Shown one piece after another: positions 5,096-60,736 of a stretch of DNA of 64,000 bases. The DNA lies in contig NZ_FONY01000001.1 in the NCBI RefSeq assembly GCF_900113045.1, positions 124,001-188,000 on the forward strand, in the 5' to 3' direction. Within the stretch, counting starts at the first letter, position 1. Every line of letters begins with the position of its first letter. Below the pieces are notes generated by a model. It was not told the origin of the DNA. It was given only the letters and a program-made list of their open reading frames with translations, and searched no databases. A program made the position numbers and the translations under genes. Origin of the DNA: Thermoflexibacter ruber (lineage in GTDB: Bacteria > Bacteroidota > Bacteroidia > Cytophagales > Thermoflexibacteraceae).

Positions 5096-5137
5096 TAATC
5101 TGTGTTTTATCTGTAAAATCAGTATTATCCGTGTTCC
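5096..5137 (-). repeat. Dispersed repeat family R1, short copy
   Basis: The reverse complement of this stretch reads CACGGATAATACTGATTTTA and continues into CAGATAAAACACAGATTA. It matches 18482-18522 nearly base for base, and related pieces occur at 53.73-53.95 kb. It lies in the gap between the thioesterase gene and dxs. Confidence 0.7.
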
Positions 5138-5327
5138 ATAATTAATAACTACTTACTATGAATAAACCATCTAAGACTGAAAAGTAGTCAAATCATAAAA
5201 CTCTATTTAAAATTTAACGCAAAAAACAAGGTGGTTTTCAAGATTGCTAAGTAAAAAACGGCATAATTACTTTATTGTGAAATTAATGCTAATTTGCAGT
5301 TAAAAAAATGCCTTATTTTCTAATATC

Positions 5328-17360: not shown

Positions 17361-17440
17361 ATTTACTTTGAGGTTTAAAGTTATCTATATACAAGCAAAC
17401 TTATTCATTAGTAAAAATAAAAACTTTCATTAGAAGATAT

Positions 17441-17739
17441 ACTCAATCAAAAGTGTTTTTGAAATTTTCTTTACTAAAAGTCCCGCTTCTCTGACACTTC
17501 CTGTGTAAAACTTATGTAAGCAATGGACTTTCATCTGCCCTTGACTAACACCGTAGGTGTGCTATTTTTGTAGAAAATAATGAATAAAACCGCGTAGCGG
17601 TGGCATATTTCACCCCTACGGGCTTAAAGTTAGATGTAGTACTGTTCATTGGCATACTCCACCCAAAGTGTCAGAGAACCAAAGTCCCTTTCTCAGCAAA
17701 AGAAAGGGATTGAAAAATCATTTTATTTTGAGTATAAAT
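17441..17739 (+). repeat. Dispersed repeat R3, copy A (interrupted)
   Basis: 17441-17484 (ACTCAATCAAAAGTG, then GAAATTTTCTTTACT) and 17681-17739 (AAAGTCCCTTTCT, AGAAAGGGATT, then CATTTTATTTTGAGTATAAA) together match, in inverse orientation, the continuous copy B at 60522-60628. A 196-bp insertion separates the halves. The GTCCCTTTCT / AGAAAGGGA core can form a hairpin. It lies in the 463-base gap between the GH43 gene and the sigma-factor gene. Confidence 0.8.
17485..17680. mobile_element. 196-bp MITE-like non-autonomous insertion
   Basis: The ends are inverted repeats, GCTTCTCTGACACTT (17485-17499) and AAGTGTCAGAGAACC (17666-17680), matching at 14 of 15 positions. They are flanked by an exact 8-base direct repeat AAAGTCCC (17477-17484 and 17681-17688), as expected for a target-site duplication. 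Removing the element and one 8-mer restores a sequence collinear with the copy at 60.5 kb. The interior has no transposase; it carries palindromic GTAGGTGTGC / CCGCGTAGCGG / CCCCTACGGG segments. An 8-bp duplication and a GGTTCTCTGACAC end resemble ISL3-family insertion sequences, but this assignment is inference. Confidence 0.82.
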
Positions 17740-17823
17740 ACAAATTTTCTGCATAATTGTAACTTTTCTCTACCTTTAAGCATTAAGCAAAAAATTAAAA
17801 ACAGCAATGTAAAAAAGAAGCGC

Positions 17824-18381
17824 GTGCATCAATCTGAAAAAGAAATCCAAGAAGAACATGACATCATCAAAAAAGCCATTGAACACCCTGAAGTCTTTGG
17901 TTTCTTGTATGAAAAGTATTATAAACAGATTTTTTTATTCATTCTTAGACGCATAGACGACAAGGCAACGACCGCTGACCTTGCTTCGCAGGTTTTTCTC
18001 AAAGCAATGCTCAACCTGCCTAAGTACAAGTTTCAAGGTCTGCCGTTCTCGGCTTGGCTTTATCGCATTGCTACTAACCAAGTCAATGAGTTTTACAGAG
18101 GTTCGCACTTCCAAAGAGTGGTCAGCGTAGAGGACGAGCAGATAAGTAATGTATTCAAAGAAGCAGCTGTCCCCGACAAGGACAAGGCAGAGCTTATCAG
18201 CAAGCTATTGGAGGAGTTGGACGAGGACGAAGTGCAGTTATTAGAATTGCGTTTTTTTGAGGACAGACCTTTCAAGGAAGTTGCTTTTATCTTAGACATT
18301 ACCGAAAATAACGCCAAAGTACGCACATACAGGATTATAGAGAAACTAAAAAAAATAGCAAAGAGGAATTATGAGTTATAA
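17824..18381 (+). CDS. ECF-type sigma-70 factor
   Basis: About 185 residues. Region 2 spans roughly 20-95 (VFGFLYEKYYKQIFLFILRR, then ADLASQVFLKAM, FSAWLYRIATNQVNEFYR). Region 4 is at the C-terminus (LDEDEVQLLELRFFEDRPFK, then ITENNAKVRTYRIIEKLKK). No ATG is in frame; a GTG at 17824 is the best start. The frame continues upstream to a GTG at 17668 inside the MITE, which I reject because that segment is repeat DNA. ECF factors redirect RNA polymerase to small regulons. A small single-pass membrane protein gene follows at 18632 and could belong to its control, although it does not look like a known anti-sigma factor. Confidence 0.85.
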   Translation: MHQSEKEIQEEHDIIKKAIEHPEVFGFLYEKYYKQIFLFILRRIDDKATTADLASQVFLKAMLNLPKYKFQGLPFSAWLYRIATNQVNEFYRGSHFQRVVSVEDEQISNVFKEAAVPDKDKAELISKLLEELDEDEVQLLELRFFEDRPFKEVAFILDITENNAKVRTYRIIEKLKKIAKRNYEL

Positions 18382-18477
18382 GTTATATAAATTATTAATT
18401 ATGAGTGAGTTAATTTTATAAACGTTTTTTGAAAATTAGAAATCTTTAATTTATCTAAATTGTTTCTAACCATTTAT

Positions 18478-18618
18478 GGCACACGGATAATACCGATTTT
18501 ACTGATAAAACACAGATTTTTGAGTAATTCATCAGTGAAAATACGTATCATCTGTAAAATATGTATTCTAAAGTTATTATGCAAAAAAGTTATTCAATTA
18601 ACTTGCTGATTATAAGCA
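18478..18618 (+). repeat. Dispersed repeat family R1, long copy
   Basis: The segment begins CACACGGATAATACCGATTT and includes TGAGTAATTCATCAGTGAAA and TCTAAAGTTATTAT. It matches 53.87-53.97 kb in its second half and the reverse complement of 5096-5137 in its first half. A 7-bp hairpin (ACTTGCT/AGCAAGT) closes it just before the next gene. Confidence 0.7.
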
Positions 18619-18631
18619 AGTAAAAACTCTA

Positions 18632-24121: not shown

Positions 24122-24170
24122 AAAAGACAACGGAGCAATCAAATGATAATTTCTGTTGTCTTTTGTTTTT
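24122..24170 (+). terminator. Intrinsic terminator of the nqr operon
   Basis: AAAAGACAAC (24122-24131) pairs with GTTGTCTTTT (24155-24164). The inner bases extend the stem with G-U pairs. TTTTGTTTTT follows. It begins 26 bases after the nqrE stop, so transcription is likely to end here without any nqrF. Confidence 0.8.
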
Positions 24171-24245
24171 ACTTCCTCACCGCTTTGAAAGTTCCGTTAG
24201 CTCGGGTATAGACTAACTCATAGGTTTGGTGAAATTCCTGCCTTT
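24169..24245 (-). pseudogene. 3'-terminal remnant of a paralogue of the 36830-37438 gene
   Basis: The minus strand encodes FHQTYELVYTRANGTFKAVR followed by K and a stop. This matches the last 21 residues of the secreted protein at 36830-37438 (FHQIYELVYTRANGTFKAVR), with nucleotide identity of roughly 90% over about 65 bases. Upstream of this the match continues for a few codons (AGI) after a small deletion that breaks the frame, then stops. It is a gene fragment left by duplication and decay; no start or signal peptide remains. Confidence 0.8.
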
Positions 24246-36733: not shown

Positions 36734-36829
36734 TTGAAAGCAAAGTGATTATTGAAAGTTTTAATATCATTTGAATTAGTTGGCATAGCTGGTTTCCTAA
36801 TATAAATATCTAATTTTTTTTACTTCTCT

Positions 36830-37438
36830 TTACTTTCTCACTGCTTTGAAAGTTCCGTTAGCTCGGGTATATACTAACTCATAGATTTGGTGAAACTTAC
36901 CATCTTCACTTATTCCTGCATCTTCTTTAAAACCTATGAAGATAGTAGTGCCTTGTTGAGGAACTTTTACCCACATTCCCAAAGAAGCATCTTTGTCAGA
37001 CAGCACTATTTTAGACTCAGCCTTAGTTAATGCCTCTTTGATTTCTTCTCTGGTAGCTTTGGGCAGGTATTTGTCCGTTTTGTCCACCAGATTCCCATTT
37101 TCTAACTCGTAAAATGTAGGTAAATCTGTTTCACAAGCAGGTCCGCAAGCAAAAGAAGCTATGACAGCAAACTTATTTCCTTGTGTAGGAATATAATAAG
37201 CCATTTCCTCAAAGCCTTCTGCATAAGGTAAATCATATCTAAGAAAGCCATTTTTAATGTCTTTGACGGTAATATTTTTATTGTTTTGGAAAGGCGTTTC
37301 ATCGGTTATCTTGCCTTTGCGAAGTTCGGCTTTGTAGGCTTTCATTCTGGCGTTAAAAAAATCCATCACAGATGTTTGAGCAACGCTTGAAGTAAATACA
37401 AACAAAGTGAAAAATAAAGAAAAAATAATAGTTCTCAT
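36830..37438 (-). CDS. Secreted protein of unknown function
   Basis: 202 residues with a signal peptide (SLFFTLFVFTSSVAQ). No family is recognised. The mature part alternates helices and strands: NARMKAYKAELRKGKITDET, AEGFEEMAYYIPTQGNKFAV, a single close cysteine pair FACGPACETDL, and the C-terminal IYELVYTRANGTFKAV. It lies between the sensor kinase and the hydrolase gene. A fragment of a second copy of this gene survives at 24169-24245, showing that the locus has been duplicated in this genome. Confidence 0.75.
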   Translation of the reverse strand: MRTIIFSLFFTLFVFTSSVAQTSVMDFFNARMKAYKAELRKGKITDETPFQNNKNITVKDIKNGFLRYDLPYAEGFEEMAYYIPTQGNKFAVIASFACGPACETDLPTFYELENGNLVDKTDKYLPKATREEIKEALTKAESKIVLSDKDASLGMWVKVPQQGTTIFIGFKEDAGISEDGKFHQIYELVYTRANGTFKAVRK

Positions 37439-53465: not shown

Positions 53466-54160
53466 TGATGTAAGATTAAATAGAAAGGTTGCTCGGCGTG
53501 AAAAAAAATTAGCTTATCGTCAATAACTTTTTCGCAAATTCAATACCGCTTTTTTAAATCTTTGATATAGAGCAACTTACAATTATCATTAAAAATAAAA
53601 TATCCGAAAACGAACATCATTGATGCCATTTTCGGACATAGATTTTGCAATCGCTTGTTTTGTTTGGTCAGCAAAAAGCGGTGGTGCTTTCAAATGTATG
53701 ATAATTTTACGTGTTAAAAAAATCTGTTTTCATCGGTACAATCTGTGTCATCAGTGTTCCAAAAATAATACGGATTGGGCTGATAAACACAGATTTTTAT
53801 TCAACAAATACTTTTCTCATCAAATTGATAACAGGTAGATAAAATACCATCATACAATTGGAATCATCGCCCAGATTTTTTGAGTAATTCATCAGTGAAA
53901 ATCTGTCTAATCTGCAAAATCTGTGTTCTAAAATTATTATCTAAAAAAGCCATCTACTTAACTAATTGATTAAGAACAAATAAAAATTTAGTTACTACAA
54001 AAATATTACCTGTCTGGGGTAATGTAATAGTACAAAAGCACCAAAAGTGCGCTAAGCACATCAAAAAAATCAGTGATATGCTGTACTTTAGACGCACTAT
54101 CCCTATCTCTAATTGATACAGAACTATGAGTTCAAGGTACAGTTCGTATTGATAATGCTA
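53466..54160. other. 700-base intergenic region with repeat DNA and a possible gene remnant
   Basis: Between the DUF418 and decarboxylase genes. On the minus strand, 53732-53589 reads without a stop (RKIIIHLKAPPLFADQTKQA, then IAKSMSENGINDVRFRIFYF) and ends in TAA. It has protein-like composition but no ATG start, so it may be the tail of a decayed gene. A nested hairpin, TCCGAAAA/TTTTCGGA (53603-53610 with 53629-53636), overlaps it. Repeat family R1 fills 53.73-53.97 kb. 53980-54160 shows nothing recognisable. Confidence 0.45.
53731..53972 (+). repeat. Dispersed repeat family R1, copy split by 73 bases
   Basis: The 3' part (CAGATTTTTTGAGTAATTC, then ATCAGTGAAAATCTG, TTCTAAAATTATTAT) matches 18521-18618. 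The 5' part (AATAATACGGATTGGGCTGA, then TAAACACAGATTTTT) matches weakly. Relative to the 18.5-kb copy, 73 bases lie between two copies of the 9-mer CAGATTTTT (53790-53798 and 53872-53880), as if inserted with a 9-bp duplication, though no terminal inverted repeats are seen. Confidence 0.6.
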
Positions 54161-60521: not shown

Positions 60522-60628
60522 TTTTATACTCAAAATAAAATGGTTGTTTTCCGCAACCTTAATCCCTTTCTCCTGTTAAGAAAGGGACTTTCCAGTAAAG
60601 AAAATTTCCAAACCACTTTTGATTGAAT
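60522..60628 (-). repeat. Dispersed repeat R3, copy B (uninterrupted)
   Basis: It begins at the base after the methyltransferase stop. Its reverse complement carries the same blocks as 17441-17484 plus 17681-17739, without the MITE. It forms two hairpins: TCCCTTTCT/AGAAAGGGA (60563-60571 with 60579-60587) and a smaller GGTTG/CAACC one. By position it may serve as the methyltransferase's transcription stop. Confidence 0.8.
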
Positions 60629-60736
60629 ATAATAAGCATTAAAAAACGCCTTTCTCCATCACAAATTTTGGCAAAGGCAAAAGCCACTCTTTTGTAAACA
60701 TTTTCCTAAATTGCAGAAATAAATATAAAAGTATCC

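Follow-up and report, generated by a model that had tools for sequence, protein, structure and literature searches.

The repeat at positions 17438 to 17736 (forward strand) of the analysed window, a stretch of 64,000 nucleotides from a 5.5-Mb draft genome in 123 contigs, is read here as a nest of three mobile layers: an IS630-type MITE (R3) that carries an ISL3-type MITE, the interior of which resembles an IS200-like element. We give a probability of roughly 0.86 to the joint reading that this nest arose by one insertion, that the loaded R3 was copied as a unit and that the inner MITE is now cargo. In this reading, the ISL3-type MITE entered the 5' arm of an R3 hairpin a single time, and the loaded R3 then reached at least 25 intergenic positions as an intact unit, most likely through the multi-copy IS630 transposase of the genome working on the outer ends. 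The composites differ by 8% on average, so the amplification is not recent and an earlier IS630 might have served.

The composite in the window is flanked by TA and has the ends TACTC...GAGTA. Its left R3 half (17438 to 17484, forward strand), whose outer end matched the IS630 ends at 23-24 of 32 positions, includes the first copy of an 8-bp target duplication, AAAGTCCC (17477 to 17484). The inner element (17485 to 17680, forward strand) opens with the terminal inverted repeat GCTTCTCTGACACTT (17485 to 17499, forward strand) and closes with its counterpart (17666 to 17680, minus strand), which reads AAGTGTCAGAGAACC on the forward strand. The second copy of the duplication (17681 to 17688) begins the right R3 half (17681 to 17736, forward strand), in which the hairpin GTCCCTTTCTCAGCAAAAGAAAGGGA is followed by the right IS630-type end. 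Repeats and duplication were read directly and were also recovered by the TIR scan and the duplication annotation, respectively. The first-pass annotation had described a gene-less element of 196 bp with inverted ends and an exact 8-bp duplication, and direct reading confirmed it: the left end and the reverse-complemented right end, GGTTCTCTGACACTT, agreed at 14 of 15 positions, AAAGTCCC was exact on both sides, and no gene was contained. The empty, inverted R3 that the same annotation had placed at 60522-60628 was present at about 60525 to 60631 (minus strand) with a single AAAGTCCC, and the pre-insertion state is visible within the window.

An open frame for an extracytoplasmic-type sigma factor (Sigma70_r2, r4) was found at 17668-18381; upstream, the frame stays free of stops as far as a GTG that lies within the inner MITE's right inverted repeat. 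The native start of this sigma factor probably lies farther downstream than the GTG of the repeat, and the MITE insertion could have given the protein an extended N-terminus.

A search of the genome with the 196-bp sequence yielded matches at about 40 places (down to E=2.9e-98), and a search with R3 gave a matching set of places. When both results were joined, and again with a 400-bp query, most inner copies were located within R3 at one identical position. The 40 places and four empty R3 were extracted and annotated for ends and duplications; two composites seen twice at contig ends (L322/L324 and L309/L327) were merged before counting, and L329/L333 were scored as halves of one copy. Distinct full composites numbered 25; a further four were present as fragments, the inner element occurred eight times elsewhere, and four R3 were empty. 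Of about 34 R3 in all, the 25 and the four fragments were loaded at the one position and just four were empty; a scan of the genome for the R3 right end revealed no R3 beyond those already counted. All 25 full composites shared the same junction and orientation, while their outer flanks were unrelated (left-flank identity 0.31). R3 is a dispersed repeat with the insert in most of its copies. The composite was absent from the two sister species, where just stray IS630-like end matches were observed.

R3 itself is about 107 bp long, flanked by TA and without coding capacity. Gene halves of the IS630 family (DDE_3, E about 1e-17) were detected at many contig ends, the contigs breaking inside the gene; just two halves, with the middle missing, were assembled in the draft, and the gene is putatively intact at most. 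The IS630 element begins with TA followed by TACTAAAAAGTAAAAGGTTTTGAAATTT and ends with CCAATTTTTATTGAGTA followed by TA, the second end reading inward as TA followed by TACTCAATAAAAATTGGTTTTGG, and R3 starts with TA followed by TACTCAATCAAAAGTGGTTTTGAAATTT. Past the common TATACT, the left end of R3 matched the right end of the insertion sequence at 16 of 20 positions (0 of 100,000 shuffles) and its left end at 13 of 20 (225 of 100,000), whereas the right end of R3 showed a weaker match to the IS630 ends (13/20; 160-383 per 100,000 shuffles). With ends that match those of a resident IS630 element, an IS630-type MITE is the best reading of R3. TA was present on both flanks of nearly all R3 copies and of the IS630 element, a flank pattern that would fit a TA duplication; no relative was found to have the homologous site of a composite in an empty state. 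The enzyme moving R3 and the composite would be that of IS630. The first-pass annotation had seen in R3 the repeat surrounding the insertion, which holds, but had missed that R3 is a MITE in its own right, of IS630 type, and that it forms the moving unit.

The passenger was identified by its ends. Allowing two mismatches, the end motif GGTTCTCTGACACTTT occurred 74 times in the genome, against five for a reversed control pattern; this excess and the roughly 40 places found by search lie well outside chance expectation, and the earlier view of an inserted MITE is supported. The possibility that no other copies with the same ends exist is clearly contradicted by the many copies in this genome and in relatives. 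In the sister species G002, of the same genus, the motif had 85 matches, mostly GGTTSTCTGACAATTT, and ends of this type bounded other short elements with 8-bp duplications as well as an insertion sequence (L174) with about 12 bp between the stop of its transposase gene and its end. The L174 transposase was assigned to ISL3 (DDE_Tnp_ISL3, 1.2e-31; NCBIfam ISL3, 1.9e-30), and the consensus end of the inner MITE was identical to the ends of this ISL3 element at 23-24 of 28 positions; the congener has an insertion sequence with nearly the same ends, of the kind that the first-pass annotation had proposed to look for. Duplications of 8 bp were recovered for the inner MITE in two exact pairs outside R3, ATAAAAAA and AATTAGTT (L336 and L337), as an imperfect 7/8 pair, AAATAGTT/AGATAGTT, at L344, and as the exact AAAGTCCC at the window copy. 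Neither the Pfam profile nor the sister protein revealed an ISL3 transposase in the 123 contigs of the genome, although the gene could be unassembled. A transposase in the same genome is usual for a MITE, but is not strictly defining. On its sequence, the inner element is an ISL3-type MITE for which only the congener has supplied an autonomous partner; the suggested ISL3-like mobilisation stands as far as the ends and the 8-bp duplication go, but no enzyme for it was found in the genome itself. In the composites, the left tip of the inner element was TG in 14 of 24 copies, instead of GG, a change that would fit if selection had ceased to maintain independent mobility in the passenger; with the ISL3 transposase not found and the left tip usually mutated, the inner MITE appears to be present-day cargo.

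The ends of the inner MITE also occurred in many Cytophagales, Saprospiraceae, Lewinella and Bernardetia MAGs. A search of named genomes for full-length insertion sequences with ISL3 ends returned many MITEs, and loose end pairs that were mostly chance and were discarded. In G002, a second ISL3-type element with different ends, inward GGCTCTACTAAGATTTATACGG, was noted (L185, L187), together with a short ISL3-type MITE in two copies about 295 bp apart (L155, L157; G002:C2:41600-42000), the flanking DNA of which is duplicated.

The interior of the passenger contains four CTACG/CGTAG hairpins in the order hp1-TTTGTAG-hp2-hp3-CTACAAAGAT-hp4. The window copy retains ACACCGTAGGTGT (hp1, 17548 to 17560) and ACCGCGTAGCGGT (hp2, 17589 to 17601), but a stretch of about 52 bp between two CCTACGG palindromes is missing, and CACCCCTACGGGCTT (17610 to 17624) represents hp3 and hp4 fused through the deletion. 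Other inner copies measured 217-260 bp, and the length of 196 bp is peculiar to this internal deletion derivative; both that size and the palindrome CCCCTACGGG result from the fusion of the two hairpins. A family-level search found the same hairpin arrangement without ISL3 ends in G005, from another genus, where such hairpins adjoin an IS200-like gene (L384; Y1_Tnp, 2e-25). Hairpins lay beside the gene in five of the six full-length Y1 loci of the sister genomes G001 and G002, and in one of G005; partial or distant Y1 matches, including both of those in the genome holding the window, had no hairpins alongside. The core aligned with the two arms of a G001 Y1 element (z about 13 each) and with gene-less G005 units (z 26-30), and its best interpretation is accordingly an IS200-like element that has lost its gene, with the arms joined. 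The palindromes in the interior had been correctly noticed in the first-pass annotation, but they are arms of an IS200-like element and CCCCTACGGG is a product of the deletion. The Y1 protein of the relatives scored over the curated IS200 cut-off and under the RAYT cut-off, for which reason the core was not filed as a true REPIN. REPIN hairpins have an unpaired GTAG tag at their foot; near the core hairpins, a GTAG/CTAC motif is situated several bases away. In the genome holding the window, the core was found only inside the ISL3-type MITE; the order in which it was captured is one we infer. Two G005 loci (L379, L382) have the IS200-like core between inverted copies of CCAATGCTATTAAGYTAAG, and there another inverted-repeat element seems to be its carrier.

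A spread of the composite through some benefit to the host, as a terminator, mRNA stabiliser or structured RNA, and not through transposition alone, is improbable, although it fares best among the alternatives. Terminator-like hairpins are present, the single strand folds strongly (z -6.5 and -6.7) and no open frame was interrupted among the testable composites, all of which would suit a useful element. The strong fold is, however, what nested inverted repeats give by themselves, and avoidance of genes is expected under purifying selection. Compensatory change was observed in just 3 of 60 pairs, with an unfavourable covariation term (+1.06), and the orientation of the neighbouring genes showed no clear bias (8 divergent, 4 convergent, the rest tandem or unscored). 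A search of the window against Rfam gave no match to the element, just a cobalamin riboswitch elsewhere (1113-1307; 104.7 bits, over the gathering score). A conserved RNA role of the element has no support, and the structured transcript that had been proposed from its palindromes was not upheld.

That the insert entered once, and that the loaded R3 then spread as a unit, is the history that the copies themselves point to. In a maximum-likelihood tree built from 32 inner sequences (24 composite copies and the eight located elsewhere), one branch separated the composite copies from the other eight (98/89; 99% of the bootstrap trees). About 9 bp (GAGGTTGAG-like) were present in all four empty R3, including the one in the window, and missing from every composite. 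The mean identity was 92% among composites, 87% among inner copies elsewhere and 79-86% among the empties. The composite clade together with the shared absence of the 9 bp argues for a single insertion followed by amplification of the loaded R3.

At locus L344, another R3 contains the inner element in opposite orientation, about 22 bp from the R3 end; the rest of this R3 aligned with an empty copy at a score of 51.5 (shuffle maximum, 26). On this alignment and its imperfect duplication, L344 is a second, independent nesting that remained as a single, unamplified copy.

An ancestral repeat of 300-360 bp, from which the empty R3 would derive by precise excision or internal deletion, could account for the loaded copies far outnumbering the empty ones (25 to 4), but is very unlikely: inner copies outside R3 own separate 8-bp duplications, the empties retain the 9 bp found in no composite and are more divergent among themselves than the composites are, L344 records a nesting elsewhere in R3, and no empty R3 was found within the composite lineage. 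The insert is indeed present in most R3 (25 of about 30 scorable), a distribution that the first-pass annotation had equated with ancestry; a loaded majority does not mean an ancestral insert, since all the loaded copies descend from one amplified insertion. Repeated, independent jumps of the inner MITE into a AAAGTCCC hot spot of many pre-existing R3, which the specific palindromic arm at the site and the one independent nesting at L344 might recall, are less likely still: the single clade and the common R3 deletion already contradict this reading, which is also disfavoured by the one orientation of all composites and the TG tip common to 14 of 24.

Single insertion followed by copying of the loaded R3 has partial parallels in known systems. 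The RUP of Streptococcus pneumoniae is a gene-less repeat of 107 bp with the ends of IS630-Spn1, and is thought to be mobile in trans (PMC3049150); R3 is likewise about 107 bp long and shares its ends with an IS630 element of its own genome, but carries a MITE of another family as cargo, and it is the loaded form that multiplied. The partner MITE of ISMac21 in Methanosarcina is short and gene-less, its inverted ends are of ISL3 type and its duplication measures 7-8 bp (PMC3852290). The inner element shares these traits, with a duplication of 8 bp; in contrast, it has an interior of IS200-like arms, no ISL3 transposase found in its genome, and most of its copies fixed inside another MITE. REP/REPIN sequences are inverted hairpin units that flank the Y1 transposase genes of RAYTs and also occur gene-less (PMC3116915, PMC3733652). 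The core similarly consists of inverted hairpin units, found beside Y1 genes in relatives and also gene-less, but its hairpins number four and have CTACG/CGTAG loops, and the transposase of the relatives scores as IS200 and not as RAYT at curated cut-offs. In mammals, the mariner MITE MER6 took up a V-SINE and spread it by its own amplification (PMC6887750), which resembles R3 in that a Tc1/mariner-type MITE spreads an unrelated mobile sequence; MER6, however, is eukaryotic and two-layered, whereas the R3 nest is made up of three layers, all derived from bacterial transposons. Nested 'Russian doll' insertions of insertion sequences and MITEs are known in prokaryotes (PMC3852290), with elements inserted into each other as in the R3 nest, but those were handled as separate events, whereas the R3 nest itself became a mobile family. 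The nested-MITE papers found concern plants and animals, and the literature searched, with partial coverage that makes this weak evidence of absence, held no description of an amplified nested MITE in bacteria. Each component is known separately, and a bacterial nest amplified as a family is apparently undescribed.

Empty carriers, free passengers, a second nest that was not amplified and an amplified nest can all be seen in this one genome, which offers a readable natural record of IS630 DDE, ISL3 DDE and IS200 HUH elements joined into one mobile unit. On this record, MITE families without a resident transposase are predicted to be still able to expand. As a tentative proposal, hitch-hiking across families may be a general means for miniature elements to survive the loss of their enzymes: MITEs with a transposase that has gone from the lineage (here ISL3-type and IS200-like) would last and increase in number inside a MITE that still has its transposase.

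Three further pairs of dispersed repeats, with identities of 80-93%, were detected in the window outside the nested MITE family, at 18517-18626 and 53877-53986, at 24163-24234 and 36824-36895, and at 5097-5141 and 18474-18518.
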